A stretch of 64,000 bases of DNA from Marinomonas sp. CT5 (GTDB taxonomy: Bacteria; Pseudomonadota; Gammaproteobacteria; Pseudomonadales; Marinomonadaceae). The notes below the pieces were generated by a model, which searched no databases, was not told the DNA's origin, and was given only the letters and a program-made list of their open reading frames with translations. Positions 1 through 8,350 of this stretch are shown here, in pieces (position 1 is the stretch's first letter; every line of letters begins with the position of its first letter). Position numbers and translations under genes: made by a program. The DNA lies in assembly GCF_018336975.1 (NCBI RefSeq), contig NZ_CP025572.1:1970495-2034494 (forward strand), given 5' to 3'.

Positions 1-581
1 ACCGTGGCATTGTTTTTCAGCAATACTCCGTCTTTCCCCATATGACGGTGTTGGAAAACGTGATCGCGGCGAAAGGCTTTCAAAAATCCTCCATCACTGG
101 CTATTTGTTTGGCAAAGAGAAAAAAGCGGCCAAGCAAGAAGCGACAGACATGCTAGAACAAGTGGGACTAGGTCATGCTTTGCATCGCTATCCACACGAA
201 TTATCGGGTGGTATGAAGCAGCGTCTTGCCATTGCCCAAGCGGTCATTTGCAAACCACGAATTTTGCTGCTGGATGAACCTTTTGGCGCACTGGACCCCG
301 GTATTCGTGCCGATATGCATTCCTTGGTGTTGGACCTATGGCGCAAGCATAAATTGACCATATTCATGGTCACGCATGACTTAAAAGAAGGTTTCTATCT
401 AGGAACTCGTTTATGGGTGTTCGACAAACTTCGTCACGACCCGCATTCCCCAAATGCTTATGGCGCCTCTATTACCTATGACTTACCTGTTGGTCATATG
501 CCTGAGCCACTTTTTGAAGAAATAGATCAACGTATTCGCCCTCTAAATCAGGGAGAGAAAACGCAGGAGCAATCAGTATGA
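1..581 (+). CDS. ABC transporter ATP-binding protein (5' truncated by window edge)
   Basis: Nitrate/sulfonate/taurine-type ABC ATPase energising uptake of a small nitrogen compound across the inner membrane. The reading frame is open from base 3, upstream of the first ATG at 42, and encodes the Q-loop region (VFQQYS), so the N-terminus with Walker A lies outside the window. Visible are the signature LSGGMKQR, Walker B LLLDEPFGALD and the H-loop VTHDLKEGF. The stop overlaps the next start by 4 nt (ATGA), indicating one operon with the DUF1989 genes, carboxylase and allophanate hydrolase. From this context the substrate is probably guanidine (or urea); the permease and binding protein would lie upstream. 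Confidence 0.9.
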   Translation, partial: RGIVFQQYSVFPHMTVLENVIAAKGFQKSSITGYLFGKEKKAAKQEATDMLEQVGLGHALHRYPHELSGGMKQRLAIAQAVICKPRILLLDEPFGALDPGIRADMHSLVLDLWRKHKLTIFMVTHDLKEGFYLGTRLWVFDKLRHDPHSPNAYGASITYDLPVGHMPEPLFEEIDQRIRPLNQGEKTQEQSV

Positions 582-1294
582 ATAAATATGAAACCATCAT
601 TCCAGCCGCCAGTCATTGGTCATTGCGCGTACGTCGCGGAATGCAAATGACCCTGACGGATATTGAAGGCGATGCCAATGTCGGCATGGTGTTTTATAAC
701 CCAGAAAACCTTTTGGAGCGTTACAACGCACCCGATACGCTAAAAGGTCAACACACTTTTAAACTCACCAAAGGTCATTGTTTGTATTCCGATATGGGGC
801 GCATATTTGCTTCCATCATTGAAGACACCGTTGGCTGGCACGAGACGGTCAATGGTAATAGCCATGCTTCACACATCGAGTCAAAGTGGGGGAAACGTGA
901 CTATCAAAATGATCGCAATGATTGGATGCAAAATGGTCACGATGCCATGTTGGTGGAAATGGCCAAATACGGTCTAACCAAAGCCGATATTGCTGCGAAT
1001 TTAAACTTGTTTAGTCGAGTTAGCACAGACAGTGAAGGTGTTATGTCATTGGTCAAAGGCAACAGTCCGGCAGGCTCTAGTATTACTTTGCGTTTTGAAA
1101 TGGACACCTTAGTGATGCTGCATACCTGCCCACACCCATTAAGCACAGCAAGCCAATACCCGAAAAAACCGATCTCCATTCTGCTGGAAAAAGCTGAACC
1201 TGTAGCAGACGACGACCTTTGCAAAATGTCGCGCCCAGAAAATCAGCGAGGCTTTGCTAATAATGCACTTTACTACTTTGGCGCGGAGGCCTAA
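578..1294 (+). CDS. DUF1989 protein, urea carboxylase-associated protein 1; probable carboxyguanidine deiminase subunit
   Basis: 238 residues, DUF1989 family, historically called urea carboxylase-associated protein 1 (UAAP1). Family knowledge: paired DUF1989 proteins beside such carboxylases form a carboxyguanidine deiminase (CgdAB) converting carboxyguanidine to allophanate and ammonia. Typical features are the N-terminal segment [30 protein letters not shown] and conserved Cys/His such as HTCPHPLS near residue 185. The start overlaps the stop of the ATPase gene (4 nt) and the next gene begins 2 nt after its stop, so the pair is translationally coupled. The guanidine assignment is inference from the family and from the riboswitch downstream. 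Confidence 0.85.
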
Positions 1295-1296
1295 TC

Positions 1297-1938
1297 ATGA
1301 TTAAAGAGAGCCAATTAACCCCAGAAAGCGCGAACACGACTTACCATATTGATGCAGGTGATTACTTTATTGGCGTAGTGAAAGCGGGCAGTACATTTCG
1401 ACTAGTCGACCTTGAAGGCAACCAAGCCGCAGATACCTTGTTCTACAATGCCAATGATCCGGCTGAGCGATACAGCGTAACGGATACCATTCGTGAGCAA
1501 GGCAAGGTGTATTTGACGGCTGGATCAGAGCTTCGTTCTAACGAGAACAATGTGATGATTGAGATTGTCGCTGATACTTGTGGTCGCCACGATACCTTGG
1601 GCGGCGCCTGTGCGACGGAAAGTAATACGGTGCGTTACGACTTAGAAAAACGTTGCATGCATGCTTGTCGAGACAGCTGGATGCTTGCGATTGCCGAAAA
1701 CCCAGAGTTTGGTTTGTCCAAGCGCGATATTAGTCACAACATCAACTTCTTTATGAATGTACCGGTGACTGAAGCGGGTGGCTTGACCTTTGAAGATGGT
1801 ATTTCAGCGCCTGGTAAATACGTTGAGATGGTGGCAAAAATGGACATCATCGTATTGATTTCGAATTGTCCTCAATTAAACAACCCTTGCAACGGCTACA
1901 ACCCGACGCCTGTCGATATGCTGGTTTGGAACGCCTAA
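1297..1938 (+). CDS. DUF1989 protein, urea carboxylase-associated protein 2; probable carboxyguanidine deiminase subunit
   Basis: 213 residues, paralogous to the preceding gene (both carry a D-x-EGN/D-x-A core followed by Y-N and ERY motifs). It is the UAAP2 partner expected to form a hetero-oligomer acting on carboxyguanidine. Conserved Cys/His residues are seen in [13 protein letters not shown] and [18 protein letters not shown]. The gene starts 2 nt after the preceding stop. It is followed by 109 bases holding the guanidine-II-type riboswitch and then the carboxylase gene, so the later part of the operon has its own post-transcriptional control. Confidence 0.85.
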
Positions 1939-1990
1939 CTGAGTCGTCTTATAAGGTTTTTTTAAACAAGTAATTAGTCTCATTTTAACG

Positions 1991-2034
1991 CAGTGGACGA
2001 CCACTGTTGTTTATCTCGCTCCGGGACGGCCCGG
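1991..2034 (+). ncRNA. Guanidine-II (mini-ykkC) riboswitch
   Basis: Two perfect hairpins lie in tandem. Hairpin 1 has arm CAGTGG (1991-1996), loop ACGA and arm CCACTG (2001-2006). Hairpin 2 has arm CCGGG (2021-2025), loop ACGG and arm CCCGG (2030-2034). The linker is 14 nt. Two stem-loops each closed by an ACGR tetraloop just upstream of a start codon are the defining consensus of guanidine-II riboswitches. The candidate Shine-Dalgarno AAGG (2037-2040) begins 3 nt after hairpin 2 and the ATG is at 2048, which fits control of translation initiation. The structural match is seen directly; ligand binding is inferred. Confidence 0.88.
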
Positions 2035-2047
2035 CCAAGGTTGAACC

Positions 2048-5000
2048 ATGTTTAACAAGGTATTAATTGCCAACCGTGGCGCCATCGCGACACGAATCAT
2101 TCGAACGCTCAATAAAATGAATATTGCCTCTGTTGCGGTATACGCTGAGTCGGATGCCAAAAGCTTGCATGTTAAGCGTGCAGATGAAGCTTTCTCCTTA
2201 GGCGAAGGCAACGCCACTGAAACCTATCTGGATATGGATAAAATCCTCAATATTGCCAAGCAGTGTGGTGCTCAGGCGATCCACCCCGGCTATGGTTTTT
2301 TGAGTGAAAACTCGACTTTTGTGCGTCGCTGTGAAGAAGAAGGTATCGCTTTTATTGGACCTACGGCTGAACAAATGATTGAGTTTGGCCTCAAGCACAG
2401 AGCGCGTGAATTAGCCGAAAAAGCCAATGTGCCGCTTTCTCCTGGTTCTGAACTACTGACCGATTTAGAGACAGCCTGCCAAACCGCCGATGGGGTTGGC
2501 TATCCTGTGATGTTAAAAAGTACCGCCGGTGGTGGCGGTATTGGTATGCACTTATGTCATAACGAAAAAGACTTACGAGAAAGCTTTGATTCCGTGCGCC
2601 GTTTAGGCGCCAACAACTTTGCTGACGATGGTGTTTTTTTAGAGAAGTTCATTGCTCGCGCCCGTCACATTGAAGTACAGATCTTTGCCGATGGTAAAGG
2701 TGGGGCATTGGCACTAGGAGAGCGTGATTGCTCTAGTCAACGCCGTAACCAAAAAGTGGTTGAAGAATGTCCCGCGCCAAACCTGACGGATGAGGTACGT
2801 AAGCAGCTGCATCGAACCGCAGAATTATTATTGTCATCGGTTCAGTATCGTAACGCTGGAACGGTCGAATTTATCTATGATATGGACACAGATAAATTCT
2901 ATTTCCTTGAAGTCAATACCCGTTTGCAGGTTGAGCACGGCGTGACGGAAATGGTCTACGCCGTGGACCTTGTAGAATGGATGATTCGTCTGGCTGCTGG
3001 CGAAGACCTTGCACTAGAAGAGAAACGTGCTTCGCTTAAAGCTCATGGACATGCGGTACAAGTGCGTTTGTATGCGGAAGATCCTTATAAAGATTTTCAG
3101 CCTTGTGCTGGCTTATTGAGTCAGGTGGCTTGGCCAGAAGAGGAAAAAAATGCCGCTGTTCGTATCGACTCTTGGATCGAAACGGGCATTGACGTCTCGC
3201 CTTACTTTGATCCTATGCTCGCCAAAGTCATCGTCCATCAAGAAGATCGCGATGCGGCCTTTGCTAAACTCAAAACAACACTGGAAAATTGCGTTTTATA
3301 TGGCACAGAAACCAATTTAGATTATCTCAAGCACTTGGTTGTTGATCCTCTGTTGCTGCGCGGAGAAGTGAGCACTCGTTACCTCAATTCGTTTGTCTAT
3401 CAACCGAAGCGCATTGATGTGTTAAGTGGCGGCACTCAAACCACTCTGCAAGATTTTCCTGGTCGTCAACATCATTGGAATGTTGGCGTACCGCCTTCTG
3501 GCCCATTCGATAATTACCATTTCCGCTTAGCGAATCGCTTGCTTAATAATCCGGATTCGGCGGCGGCTATGGAAATTACTCTGCAAGGCCCCAGCTTAAA
3601 ATTCAGCTTTGAAACCTGTCTTGTGGTTTGTGGCGCCGTGATTGATGCGAAAATTGATGGGCAAGCCATCGAGCAAAATACTGTGGTCACCATACAAGCA
3701 GGCGAAACATTGACCTTGGGGCGAATCAAAGAGCAGGGCGCACGAGCGTATTTAGCCGTGGCGGGTGGTTTCGATTGTCCTGATTATTTGGGCTCGAAAT
3801 CCACCTTCACCTTGGGGCAGTTTGGTGGTCACAATGGTCGAGCGATTCAAACGGGTGATGTCTTGCATGTGCTTGAGGCAGACGCGACTCAATTAAGCGG
3901 TTTGTCTTCTAAGCCAGTCCCTAAGGTACTTTTCGCGCAGATGGATCACACGGTAGAACTACGCGTGATTTACGGCCCACATGGTTCTCCTGATTTTTTT
4001 ACCCCAGAAGACATTGATATGTTTTTTGGTACAGAGTGGGAAATTCATTATAACTCCAGTCGAACGGGTGTTCGTTTAATTGGGCCTAAACCCAAATGGG
4101 CGCGTAACGATGGTGGTGAGGCCGGTTTGCATCCGTCAAATATTCACGATAACGCTTACGCCTTTGGTAGTGTGGATTTCACTGGGGATATGCCGGTTAT
4201 TTTGGGGCCAGATGGCCCATCTCTTGGTGGTTTTGTGTGTCCTGCCACTGTCATTACGGCCGATTTATGGAAGCTAGGGCAATTGAGAGCGGGCGATAAA
4301 ATCCGTTTTATTCCTGTGACCTTGGAAGACGCCGTGGCGTTAGAAGCGGCGCAAAATAAAGGCTTGGCTAATCTAACGGCATTTGAACAAGCTGTTCCAA
4401 CTTGTGAGTTTTCTTGTGAAGAGAAGACGCCGATTTTGAAAACCTTACCAGCCGAGCGTTTTGGCGATGAAATTGTTTATCGTGCCGCGGGCGATCATTT
4501 CTTGCTGGTGGAATATGGCGAGCAAATGTTAGATATCCGCTTACGTTTCCGCGCTCATGCCTTAATGCAATGGTTAGAGAAAAATCCATTAAAAGGCATG
4601 CGCGAACTGACGCCGGGTATTCGCTCTTTGCAAATTCACTATGACAGCCAGCAATTGAGCTACACCGATTTATTAGATCATTTGGAATCGGCTGAGCAAG
4701 CCTTGAGCAGTCAGCTTGATGAACTGACCGTGCCATCTAGAACGGTATATTTGCCATTGTCTTGGGATGATAAGGCTTGCCAAGAAGCCATCGACAAATA
4801 CGCGCAATCAGTGCGTTCTAATGCCCCTTGGTGTCCAAGTAACCTAGAGTTTATCCGTCGTATTAATGGTTTAGACAGCATTAATGATGTGAAAGACATA
4901 CTGTTCAGTGCCAGTTATTTGGTGATGGGCTTGGGGGATGTGTACCTTGGTGCACCCGTTGCGACCCCAGTCGACCCTAGGCACCGTTTGGTGACAACTA

Positions 5001-5674
5001 AGTACAACCCTGCTCGTACATGGACAGCAGAGAACTCTGTCGGTATTGGGGGCTCTTATCTTTGTGTGTACGGCATGGAAGGCCCTGGCGGTTATCAGTT
5101 TGTTGGTCGAACACTGCAAATGTGGAATCGCTATCGTCAAACAAGCGCGTTTACCAAGCCCTGGTTGTTGCGCTTCTTTGATCAGATTCGTTTCTATGAA
5201 GTGAGTCACGAAGAGCTGGATCAAATCCGTAAAGACTTCCCCCACGATAACTATAGTATTCGCATTGAAGAGAGCACCTTTTCTTTGGCTGACTACCAGA
5301 GCTTTATTGCTGAAAACCAAACCAGCATTGATGAATTTAAACAAGTGCGCAATCACGCTTTTGAGGCCGAGCTAGCCCGCTGGCATGCCAATGGTCAATT
5401 CCATTTCGATACCGACGAAGCGGAGGCGGTCGTAACCGACATCACTTGGAGCGAAGACGCTACCGTGGTGGATAGCCCAGTGTCTGGCAGTGTTTGGCAA
5501 ACCCAAGTGAAAGAAGGCGACCAAGTGCAAGCGGGGCAGTTATTGCTCATTTTGGAATCCATGAAGATGGAAATTCCTATCTATGCTCCCGCCGCAGGCG
5601 TGGTATCGGATTTGTTACTAAAAGACGGTAGCCGCGTTAATGCAGGGCAGGCAATTGTTGTTCTTGAAGATTAG
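2048..5674 (+). CDS. Urea carboxylase family protein; probable guanidine carboxylase (biotin-dependent)
   Basis: 1208 residues, full length for the family. Biotin- and ATP-dependent carboxylation of guanidine or urea. Order of domains: biotin carboxylase with ATP-grasp (about 1-450, glycine-rich TAGGGGIGMH near 160), KipA/KipI-like carboxyltransferase halves (about 455-1060, including GIGGSYLCVYGMEGPGGYQ), and a C-terminal biotinyl domain with ESMKM whose acceptor lysine is about K1173. Start ATG at 2048 follows AAGG and the riboswitch. Enzymes linked to guanidine riboswitches prefer guanidine over urea, so guanidine carboxylase is the better name here; sequence alone cannot exclude urea. The next gene starts 23 nt downstream. 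Confidence 0.93.
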   Translation: MFNKVLIANRGAIATRIIRTLNKMNIASVAVYAESDAKSLHVKRADEAFSLGEGNATETYLDMDKILNIAKQCGAQAIHPGYGFLSENSTFVRRCEEEGIAFIGPTAEQMIEFGLKHRARELAEKANVPLSPGSELLTDLETACQTADGVGYPVMLKSTAGGGGIGMHLCHNEKDLRESFDSVRRLGANNFADDGVFLEKFIARARHIEVQIFADGKGGALALGERDCSSQRRNQKVVEECPAPNLTDEVRKQLHRTAELLLSSVQYRNAGTVEFIYDMDTDKFYFLEVNTRLQVEHGVTEMVYAVDLVEWMIRLAAGEDLALEEKRASLKAHGHAVQVRLYAEDPYKDFQPCAGLLSQVAWPEEEKNAAVRIDSWIETGIDVSPYFDPMLAKVIVHQEDRDAAFAKLKTTLENCVLYGTETNLDYLKHLVVDPLLLRGEVSTRYLNSFVYQPKRIDVLSGGTQTTLQDFPGRQHHWNVGVPPSGPFDNYHFRLANRLLNNPDSAAAMEITLQGPSLKFSFETCLVVCGAVIDAKIDGQAIEQNTVVTIQAGETLTLGRIKEQGARAYLAVAGGFDCPDYLGSKSTFTLGQFGGHNGRAIQTGDVLHVLEADATQLSGLSSKPVPKVLFAQMDHTVELRVIYGPHGSPDFFTPEDIDMFFGTEWEIHYNSSRTGVRLIGPKPKWARNDGGEAGLHPSNIHDNAYAFGSVDFTGDMPVILGPDGPSLGGFVCPATVITADLWKLGQLRAGDKIRFIPVTLEDAVALEAAQNKGLANLTAFEQAVPTCEFSCEEKTPILKTLPAERFGDEIVYRAAGDHFLLVEYGEQMLDIRLRFRAHALMQWLEKNPLKGMRELTPGIRSLQIHYDSQQLSYTDLLDHLESAEQALSSQLDELTVPSRTVYLPLSWDDKACQEAIDKYAQSVRSNAPWCPSNLEFIRRINGLDSINDVKDILFSASYLVMGLGDVYLGAPVATPVDPRHRLVTTKYNPARTWTAENSVGIGGSYLCVYGMEGPGGYQFVGRTLQMWNRYRQTSAFTKPWLLRFFDQIRFYEVSHEELDQIRKDFPHDNYSIRIEESTFSLADYQSFIAENQTSIDEFKQVRNHAFEAELARWHANGQFHFDTDEAEAVVTDITWSEDATVVDSPVSGSVWQTQVKEGDQVQAGQLLLILESMKMEIPIYAPAAGVVSDLLLKDGSRVNAGQAIVVLED

Positions 5675-5697
5675 CACAGAGGATTGAGGAAGAAGTT

Positions 5698-7527
5698 ATG
5701 GGCATGCAACTAGAAGCACAAAACGGTTTAGATATGGGGTTCGCTGCACTGCGCAGCGCTTATCTGTCAGGGACTAGCACACCAGAAAGTGTCATGGCGG
5801 ACATTCGTGAACGGGCGGCGGATTATAAAGATCATAATATTTGGATTCACCTATTAACAGAAGCGGAACAAGCCGTTTGGTTAGACGCCTTGAAAGACAA
5901 AGACATGGAGACTCACCCTCTGTGGGGGATTCCATTTGCGATTAAAGACAATATTGATCTTGCGGGTATTCCAACGACAGCAGGTTGTGATGCCTTTGCT
6001 TATAAGCCAGAAGTCTCGGCTCAGGTGGTTCAGCAGTTAATTGATGCGGGGGCCATTCCCGTTGGTAAAACCAATTTAGATCAATTTGCGACCGGTCTAA
6101 ATGGTACACGTTCGCCTTATGGTGCTTGTCATAACTCGTTTAATTACGACTACATCAGTGGTGGTTCTAGTTCGGGGTCGGCGGTGGCGGTAGCGCTTGG
6201 CTTAGCCAGCTTCAGCTTAGGGACAGACACGGCCGGTTCTGGACGTGTTCCGGCTTGCTTCAATAATTTGGTAGGCGTGAAACCGAGTATTGGTTTGCTA
6301 TCGGCAACTGGGTTAGTGCCAGCCTGCCGTAGTCTAGATTGCATCACTATTTTTGCCTACAACACAGACGATGCCAATACTGCCTTGGCGGCGGCGGAAG
6401 GCTTTGATGCGCGCGATGGCTACAGTCGAGCGAACCCATTTGATAATCAAGCTCGTCACTATGGCTTGCGTACCGGTGAGTTAACGGTTGGGGTGATTCC
6501 AGCTCACCAGTTGCAATTTTTTGGTGATGAAAGTTATGAAAAAGCGTATTTGGAGACATTGGCGTTATTAAAGGATCAGGGTTTTTCGTTTCAAGAAATT
6601 GATTATGCGCCCTTTGATGAAATTGCTAAATTGTTGTACGAAGGTCCTTGGGTGTCTGAACGTTACATTGCTGCTCAACCCTTGATTGACGATAATCCAG
6701 AAGCGATTTTTCCTGTGGTACGAGAAATCATCGCACCTGGTGGCAAACCGCCAGCAACGGCTTTGTTTCAGGCGCAATACCGCATTCGTGATTTGCAACA
6801 AACGTGTATGCAGCAAATGGCCAACGTCGATTGTTTATTAACGCCCACAGCAGGTCGACATTTTACTATTGCAGAAATGTTGGCAGAGCCAATTAAGCGA
6901 AACAGTGAGTTAGGTTACTACACTAATTTCATGAACTTAATTGACTTGGCGTCGATTGCGGTTCCAACCGTGATGACAGATAACGATATGCCGTTTGGTA
7001 TCACACTTGTGGGGCCAACCTTTAGCGATCGTATGTTGATGTCGATTGCCAACCGCATCCAACAGGTTCTTCCTCTGAAAAAAGGCGCTTTGGAAGTGAT
7101 GGCAGCCCCAAGTACCACGTCTCCTGTGGGGAATAATCAATTTATTGATGTGATGGTTTGTGGCGCTCACTTAGCGGGTCAACCGCTTAATTGGCAGCTG
7201 ACTGAACGTGGCGCTCACCTGAAAACCACAACAACCACGGCTTCTACGTATCGCATGTATGCACTGGCTGGTGGTCCACCGCTTCGCCCAGGTTTGGTTC
7301 TTGATAAGGACAAGGGGGATGCCATCGAAGTGGAAGTTTGGTCTGTGCCTGCGCAACACTTCGGTAGTTTTGTTGCTGGTATTCCTGCGCCTCTTGGAAT
7401 CGGTAAAGTAATACTCGCCGACGGAAGCCAAGTGGCAGGCTTTATCTGTGAGCCATATGGTGTTGAAGGTGCGCAAGACATTACCCGCCTAAAAGGCTGG
7501 CGCGCGTATTTAGATTCACTGAAATAA
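5698..7527 (+). CDS. atzF: Allophanate hydrolase
   Basis: 609 residues; amidase-signature enzyme hydrolysing allophanate to ammonia and CO2, the last step of the urea/guanidine carboxylase route. The catalytic Ser-cisSer-Lys triad is visible as K124 (VGKTN), S157 (SGGSSSGSA) and S181 (DTAGSGRVP). The C-terminal 150 or so residues form the extra domain found in complete AtzF/DUR1 proteins, for example MYALAGGPPLRPGLVL. ATG at 5698 is preceded by GAGGAAGAAG. It lies 23 nt after the carboxylase stop and an intrinsic terminator follows, ending the operon. Confidence 0.95.
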   Translation: MGMQLEAQNGLDMGFAALRSAYLSGTSTPESVMADIRERAADYKDHNIWIHLLTEAEQAVWLDALKDKDMETHPLWGIPFAIKDNIDLAGIPTTAGCDAFAYKPEVSAQVVQQLIDAGAIPVGKTNLDQFATGLNGTRSPYGACHNSFNYDYISGGSSSGSAVAVALGLASFSLGTDTAGSGRVPACFNNLVGVKPSIGLLSATGLVPACRSLDCITIFAYNTDDANTALAAAEGFDARDGYSRANPFDNQARHYGLRTGELTVGVIPAHQLQFFGDESYEKAYLETLALLKDQGFSFQEIDYAPFDEIAKLLYEGPWVSERYIAAQPLIDDNPEAIFPVVREIIAPGGKPPATALFQAQYRIRDLQQTCMQQMANVDCLLTPTAGRHFTIAEMLAEPIKRNSELGYYTNFMNLIDLASIAVPTVMTDNDMPFGITLVGPTFSDRMLMSIANRIQQVLPLKKGALEVMAAPSTTSPVGNNQFIDVMVCGAHLAGQPLNWQLTERGAHLKTTTTTASTYRMYALAGGPPLRPGLVLDKDKGDAIEVEVWSVPAQHFGSFVAGIPAPLGIGKVILADGSQVAGFICEPYGVEGAQDITRLKGWRAYLDSLK

Positions 7528-7554
7528 TAAGCTGGTAGATACACAAGTAAACTC

Positions 7555-7589
7555 AAACCACTTCCTTAGAAATAGAGAAGTGGTTTTTT
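7555..7589 (+). terminator. Rho-independent terminator after atzF
   Basis: A 10-bp perfect stem, AAACCACTTC (7555-7564) with GAAGTGGTTT (7577-7586), has a 12-nt loop and runs into T residues. It ends the guanidine operon. Its sequence resembles the terminator at 18314. Confidence 0.9.
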
Positions 7590-7864
7590 GTTTATTAAGC
7601 CAAGTTGCTAATCATTGTTCATGATAAAAAAGCATCTATTTAGGAAAATTATGGGGGAAGTCTTTCAGCGGCGCGAGGTGTATTGAGCTTTTTGAGTTTA
7701 CTGATAAAGTGGATGATACTGTTAGTTATGGGCGCAGTTTTTTACTGTTTTAGCCTTTTTCATTCTAGGAGGAATTTTGTGTATATGGCACAATATTTTA
7801 AGTAAAAATCGCTCATTGTTCACACCCCTTAATACGTCGTTACTGATTAGACTTTGGAGGAAAT

Positions 7865-8350
7865 ATGTCAATGGAATTGAAAGCTTCATCATTAAAAGTA
7901 CAAGCTGTTTTGTCTCAGCATGGACAGGATTTTGTTGTTCAGCAAATGCCAAGTTCAACTCGAACTGCAAAAGATGCAGCTGAGGCTGTTGGTTGTTCTG
8001 TTTCACAGATCGCTAAATCATTAATATTTAAACATGGCGAAACGGGCGAGCCTGTTTTGGTTGTCGCATCAGGCACGAATATGGTTTGTAGCGATAAGGT
8101 CAAACAGGCAACAGGGATTGCATTAGAAAAAGCGGATGCTGCGTTTGTACGAGATAAAGTAGGTTACGCTATTGGTGGTGTTCCTCCTGTTGCGCATAAT
8201 GAGAAACTGACAACTCTTCTAGATAAAGATCTCTACCAATATACAGAGATTTGGGCAGCCGCAGGTACGCCGAACTCTGTATTCAAACTCAATCCACAAT
8301 ACTTAGGTGAGCTAACACAAGGTCAATGGATAGATTTAGCAAAAGTATAA
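7865..8350 (+). CDS. YbaK/EbsC-type aminoacyl-tRNA deacylase
   Basis: 161 residues, YbaK/ProX/EbsC fold. These proteins hydrolyse mischarged aminoacyl-tRNA (for example Cys-tRNAPro or Ala-tRNAPro) in the cytoplasm. Characteristic segments are the QIAKSLIFKH strand with its conserved lysine, DKVKQATG, the GYAIGGVPPVAH turn and WAAAGTPNSVFKL. The start ATG 7865 has a strong GGAGG at 7856-7860. It is a stand-alone gene, with 338 bases before the next gene. Exact tRNA specificity cannot be read from the sequence. Confidence 0.88.
   Translation: MSMELKASSLKVQAVLSQHGQDFVVQQMPSSTRTAKDAAEAVGCSVSQIAKSLIFKHGETGEPVLVVASGTNMVCSDKVKQATGIALEKADAAFVRDKVGYAIGGVPPVAHNEKLTTLLDKDLYQYTEIWAAAGTPNSVFKLNPQYLGELTQGQWIDLAKV

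Follow-up and report, generated by a model that had tools for sequence, protein, structure and literature searches.

A predicted guanidine-II riboswitch inside a probable guanidine-assimilation operon that carries guanidine-I at its head

What does a guanidine sensor do in the middle of an operon? In the 64,000-nucleotide stretch of DNA analyzed here (hereafter, the window), two small hairpins stand directly upstream of a carboxylase gene. An earlier note, made from the sequence alone, took them for a guanidine-II (mini-ykkC) riboswitch, and read their operon-internal place as a sign that carboxylase and allophanate hydrolase are tuned separately from transporter and deiminase.

The element occupies positions 1991-2034 of the forward strand, on which all window features given below lie. 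It is composed of a P1 hairpin at 1991-2006 (CAGTGG-ACGA-CCACTG, loop ACGA at 1997-2000), a 14-nt linker at 2007-2020 and a P2 hairpin at 2021-2034 (CCGGG-ACGG-CCCGG, loop ACGG at 2026-2029). A Shine-Dalgarno sequence, AAGG (2037-2040), lies 2 nt after the end of P2 and 7 nt upstream of the carboxylase ATG at 2048, which is 13 nt from P2. The two perfect stem-loops, their spacing and their place before the Shine-Dalgarno sequence are as first described. Both hairpins are present in the minimum-energy fold of 1985-2060; the fold of this region as a whole is unexceptional (z -1.54, and z -0.78 for 1939-2080). A covariance-model search, which had been proposed as the check, gave a significant RF01068 match with both ACGR loops at exactly 1991-2034, scoring 32.5 bits against a gathering cut-off of 32 in a cmscan of the window (E-value 0.011 for the window against 4227 families, and 1.9e-4 for RF01068 over the whole genome). 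It is the sole match above cut-off in the 4.76-Mb genome; a single further site was listed at E up to 10, with a score of 13.2 bits. Like other members of its class, the element has two GC-rich hairpins with ACGR loops, a short linker and a nearby ribosome site, here that of a guanidine-metabolism gene (whose substrate is taken from the literature); the differences seen are limited to linker and stem length. With a narrow margin of 0.5 bit the score is marginal by itself, and identity as guanidine-II is settled by position and covariation.

Covariation was analyzed in an alignment of 43 distinct guanidine-II sequences, the window's included, in which 96.4% of cells are paired. Double-change cells in the stems number 99, compared with 31 in shuffles (reached by 0 of 500), and fall in 7 of the 11 pairs, compared with 5.2 in shuffles (reached by 11 of 500). 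Compensatory changes occur in both P1 and P2, and sliding the partner strand gave much lower pairing values. It is very improbable, then, that the hairpins are GC-rich stem-loops formed by chance, or a weak terminator. This explanation could draw on the small margin of the score and on the appearance of P1 in a list of terminator-like sites, but that list holds 11 sites where 9.7 are expected; chance hairpins are rejected in view of homologues in the order and covariation, and the paired loop motif recurs in nearly all of the named loci described below. Judged from sequence and comparison, the element is a guanidine-II riboswitch, as the earlier note had proposed.

The operon to which it belongs begins outside the window. 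About 2.2 kb upstream of window base 1, at the operon head, a guanidine-I riboswitch (RF00442, 96.9 bits, L003:7654-7762) lies 62 nt upstream of the start of a binding-protein gene, which is followed by a permease gene and by the gene for the ABC importer ATPase, whose end (3-581; start upstream of the window) opens the window. The two DUF1989 genes come next, UAAP1 at 578-1294 (TIGR03425, 319 bits; PF09347) and UAAP2 at 1297-1938 (TIGR03424, 330 bits; PF09347), which the literature identifies as carboxyguanidine deiminase subunits; they confirm the place given to the element in the note. Downstream of guanidine-II are the 1208-aa carboxylase (2048-5674; 1843 bits with TIGR02712, a model named urea carboxylase), probably a guanidine carboxylase, and allophanate hydrolase (5698-7527; TIGR02713, 767 bits). 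A likely intrinsic terminator, recognized by eye at 7555-7589, ends the operon; its loop is too long for the terminator scan used. Assignment of these enzymes to the guanidine carboxylase pathway follows the available portions of PMC12186494 and PMC12508155. With the promoter motif discussed below, the order of parts is [sigma-54-like promoter motif] - guanidine-I - binding protein - permease - ATPase - UAAP1 - UAAP2 - guanidine-II - carboxylase - allophanate hydrolase, i.e., guanidine-I at the head and the importer, deiminase, carboxylase and hydrolase genes in the order expected of a two-switch operon. We regard it as very likely that the operon serves guanidine assimilation and that 1991-2034 acts as a guanidine-II riboswitch on its polycistronic mRNA. 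The source is probably a Marinomonas; the nearest relatives among the named genomes are Marinomonas species, with carboxylase identity of up to 92%.

With guanidine-I at the operon head, a guanidine sensor precedes the importer and deiminase genes as well as the carboxylase gene, and guanidine-II is a second sensor, of an unrelated class, for the same ligand inside the operon. The idea of separate tuning survives in part: guanidine-II would place an extra gate on carboxylase and hydrolase, but with guanidine-I at the head both blocks sense guanidine. An extra translational gate on the carboxylase would be the better reading.

The stronger form of that idea, in which a promoter just upstream of guanidine-II makes carboxylase and hydrolase a separate unit, comes near the original proposal and appears quite unlikely. 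It would agree with the 52 nt from the UAAP2 stop codon to the aptamer in the window, and with longer gaps in some loci (up to 656 nt by automatic measure). However, the median gap between the preceding stop codon and guanidine-II is 23 nt, and 40 nt or less in 32 of 48 loci (G084, without a stop call, was left out); no sigma-70-like match was found in 1939-1990, with 10 matches in 1-8000 compared with 10.8 in shuffles; and a sigma-54-like site was seen in none of 54 loci within 200 nt upstream of guanidine-II. A variant with the promoter inside UAAP2 is conceivable. Because gaps are short and promoter motifs absent, we infer one transcript running through guanidine-II, and separate transcription of the carboxylase block finds no support.

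The situation is different at the operon head. A sigma-54-type motif, TTGGCATGTTATCTGCT, is located outside the window, 68 nt upstream of guanidine-I (L003:7586-7602, corresponding to G000:C1:1968086-1968102), and the genome has rpoN and ntrC matches above their cut-offs. When the motif was defined as -24/-12, GG-N10-GC, with 11 or more of the 13 positions of the general consensus, within 200 nt upstream, guanidine-I was preceded by it in 42 of the 64 loci of the order, 39 of the 42 at 63-95 nt, compared with 0/64 on the reverse strand, 14/1280 dinucleotide shuffles and 13/1273 intra-operon pieces of 200 nt. The threshold was missed in 22 of the 64 loci, and 6 lack any GG-N10-GC. Such a motif points to a link between guanidine use and nitrogen shortage. 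We found no paper that connects sigma-54, RpoN, NtrC or nitrogen limitation with guanidine carboxylase or with guanidine riboswitches, which is weak evidence, as subscription papers were mostly outside the search; within that scope the putative promoter motif before guanidine-I was not found in print. Between motif and riboswitch, a perfect 8-nt inverted repeat, GATGTTCG / CGAACATC (L003:7611-7618 and 7633-7640), was noticed by eye.

How common is this layout? A sample of 244 genomes of the order contained 87 matches of the carboxylase family; guanidine-II matches below cut-off were accepted at E up to 0.01. Guanidine-II within 150 nt together with guanidine-I within 12 kb was found at 45 of the 87 carboxylase loci; the others had guanidine-II close without guanidine-I (4), both with guanidine-II further up (5), guanidine-I only (14) or neither (19). 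In 49 operons, the window's included, guanidine-II lies 14-48 nt upstream of the carboxylase match; guanidine-I is in reach in 45 of them but not in the other 4. Of these guanidine-II elements, 35 score above cut-off and 14 below; including one of the 5 others, 15 of all 54 guanidine-II matches counted are below cut-off. The two-sensor layout, known from few species, proved to be the commonest among the sampled riboswitch-linked loci: the exact part order of the window occurs in 38 of 68, its own locus included, and a further 5 of the 68 have the same gene order with guanidine-II upstream of UAAP1 instead. Among the named genomes, 15 loci had a full-length carboxylase (11 from Marinomonas), and 9 of 24 with a biotin domain match only were left out. 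Guanidine-I was above cut-off in all 15. Guanidine-II was above cut-off in 8/15, compared with both ACGR motifs by pattern in 14/15, so the curated RF01068 cut-off seems, from these sequences, to miss true members.

Several other arrangements were observed. Two guanidine-II elements are present in one operon at L079 (G152), before UAAP1 (25.4 bits, below cut-off) and before the carboxylase, with no guanidine-I found. At L041, L048, L089 and L099 (G025, G061, G191, G231), two guanidine-I elements lie upstream of one carboxylase, each before a binding-protein or permease gene. Of the 93 guanidine-II matches in the order, 38 have no carboxylase match within the next 12 kb downstream. With TIGR02712, 15 of the 19 riboswitch-free carboxylases in the order reach 1917-1958 bits, compared with 1899 at most for riboswitch-linked ones; the high-scoring group may be genuine urea carboxylases. 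The split does not hold outside the order, where riboswitch-linked carboxylases of G563, G369, G603 and G261 score 1911-1953.

The presence of guanidine-II follows the arrangement of the importer genes. We designated operons as fused when importer genes lie between head and enzymes, and as split when guanidine-I directly precedes UAAP1-UAAP2-carboxylase. Of 59 fused operons in the order, 57 have guanidine-II (39 above cut-off, 18 below), compared with 0 of 9 split loci, a relaxed scan of all nine included (Fisher p about 1e-9, which ignores relatedness of loci). G084 was counted as fused though its contig ends before the importer, and when guanidine-I was required in the same stretch the count became 53/55; in G192, guanidine-I is present only as two pieces below cut-off. 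The relaxed scan revealed guanidine-II below cut-off (24-27 bits) just before the carboxylase in 3 of 5 fused operons that seemingly lacked it (G023, G232 and, with an estimated start, G214), and recovered none in G076 and G090, of which G090 keeps, by eye, a P2-like hairpin only. The contrast is also seen within one genus, where G019 is fused and has guanidine-II; the split operons of G060, G093 and G146 lack it, and their permease and ATPase genes lie elsewhere, behind their own guanidine-I.

Outside the order, in a thinner sample of the class, the tendency is weaker, with guanidine-II in 9/12 fused and 0/2 split operons. Here, 31 carboxylase matches were obtained and 29 considered, G000 and G073 being already in the order sample. 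Guanidine-I and guanidine-II were both present in 9/29 (guanidine-II of G435 and G244 below cut-off; importer genes taken from distance only); G299, G333 and G480 have guanidine-I and importer genes (tblastn) without guanidine-II; G268 and G454 are split without guanidine-II; G563 has guanidine-I and another gene between, without guanidine-II; 7/29 have guanidine-II without guanidine-I in reach, and 6/29 neither. G361, with a partial, broken carboxylase match, was left out. Within literature on guanidine-II riboswitches and guanidine carboxylase, this putative fused/split rule was not found in print.

The same counts bear on the possibility that the internal element is a relic, left when two separately controlled units were joined, so that guanidine-II adds nothing and guanidine-I gates the whole mRNA. 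The strong guanidine-I at the head is compatible with such a history. So are the absence of a complete guanidine-II from fused G076 and G090 in the order and from the three of 12 outside it (G299, G333, G480), and the state of the element in Marinomonas rhodophyticola (L129, just upstream of 7001), where by eye P1 is intact and P2 apparently broken by base changes. Yet compensatory change keeps both stems over the 43 distinct sequences, and the element is retained in nearly all fused operons of the order; we judge the relic explanation unlikely.

If guanidine-II works as a gate, how would it act? According to the available text of PMC12186494, PMC9094411 and PMC9561414, guanidine-II switches are held to unmask the ribosome site and so to control translation, and guanidine binding with kissing loops has been measured for relatives (PMC12508155, PMC5486947, as far as available). 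By analogy, guanidine, perhaps also methylguanidine, would cause the two ACGR loops to kiss, the ribosome site would be left free, and translation of the carboxylase would be turned on, together with that of allophanate hydrolase via the same mRNA. Searches for the masking partner used 46 of the 49 loci (L054, L060 and L066, with unmatched loop pattern, were left out). No shared flank-to-flank anti-Shine-Dalgarno helix was found (mean z 0.2), ensemble folding gave no common partner for the ribosome site, and forcing the aptamer left the site equally accessible in the model (mean unpaired 0.45 free versus 0.46 forced). In the window, the modeled probability of ribosome-site pairing is 0.29 with the linker and 0.20 with the coding start. 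Positions 2010-2016 could pair weakly with 2038-2045 and are, by eye, a candidate anti-Shine-Dalgarno. A predicted 7-bp hairpin around the start codon (2040-2056) was given no weight because it varies, by eye, within the genus.

The guanidine-I leader lacks an intrinsic terminator in 49 of 60 fused leaders, that of the window's operon included. Terminator-like sites are present in 11/60 fused versus 7/9 split leaders (Fisher p 7.6e-4, ignoring relatedness), counted with lenient criteria and automatic start codons; several matches are weak in fused and split leaders alike, and G192, whose guanidine-I is broken up, enters the 60 twice. They also occur in 3/3 guanidine-I leaders before separate permease-ATPase units, so a simple rule that importer heads lack terminators does not fit; absence of an intrinsic terminator from the head guanidine-I of fused operons appears to be a tendency only. 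For V. boliviensis guanidine-I, a terminator is presumed in the available part of PMC12508155. Complementarity to the guanidine-I strand GGTTACAC recurs in a leader element of some loci, with z below -1.5 in 16/58 fused and 1/9 split leaders (two guanidine-I matches without the strand motif were left out); it could not be developed into a switch of known sign.

Taken with the translational gate proposed for guanidine-II, these observations may be joined into a scheme of three gates: nitrogen supply would control the promoter, and guanidine would be sensed twice, first at the head, where it would govern import and deiminase, and once more in front of the ATP-using carboxylase. If head control is itself translational, a further translational gate for the remote enzyme genes would be reasonable. 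As a tentative design rule for these Gammaproteobacteria, on which we would not insist, guanidine operons may have a sigma-54, nitrogen-controlled start; in fused operons, the head guanidine-I, mostly without terminator, would act mainly on neighboring genes, with an additional guanidine sensor of unrelated class kept at a border before enzyme genes; this additional sensor would be absent where guanidine-I lies directly before the enzymes. The analysis raises a testable question: why should a single ligand be sensed by two unrelated RNAs in one operon?

The two-switch layout itself is already published, and the window contains a known element in a known type of operon. What was not found in print, within the scope given above, is comparative, i.e., the fused/split rule and the sigma-54 motif. 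One inference of the earlier note is corrected, in that the operon head is probably guanidine-controlled too. According to the available text of PMC9481103, none of the four guanidine classes was seen in tandem arrangements; this refers to neighboring aptamers in one leader, and the present layout does not contradict it. In three enterobacteria, studied by in-line probing (PMC12186494, available portion), the same split occurs, guanidine-I being associated with importer and deiminase genes and guanidine-II with carboxylase and hydrolase; here the likeness is one of layout. The closest described counterpart is Vreelandella (Halomonas) boliviensis, for which the accessible text of PMC12508155 reports in-line probing of both switches (KD of 44 uM for guanidine-I; for guanidine-II, 93 uM with guanidine and 83 uM with methylguanidine) and induction of the operon proteins in proteome data. 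As in the window's operon, guanidine-I is at the head, an ABC importer is encoded, and guanidine-II separates the second deiminase gene from the carboxylase gene. The two differ in that V. boliviensis carries mgdH and mgdL, two methylguanidine genes, between its carboxylase and hydrolase genes, whereas in the window the hydrolase gene directly follows the carboxylase gene, 23 nt downstream.
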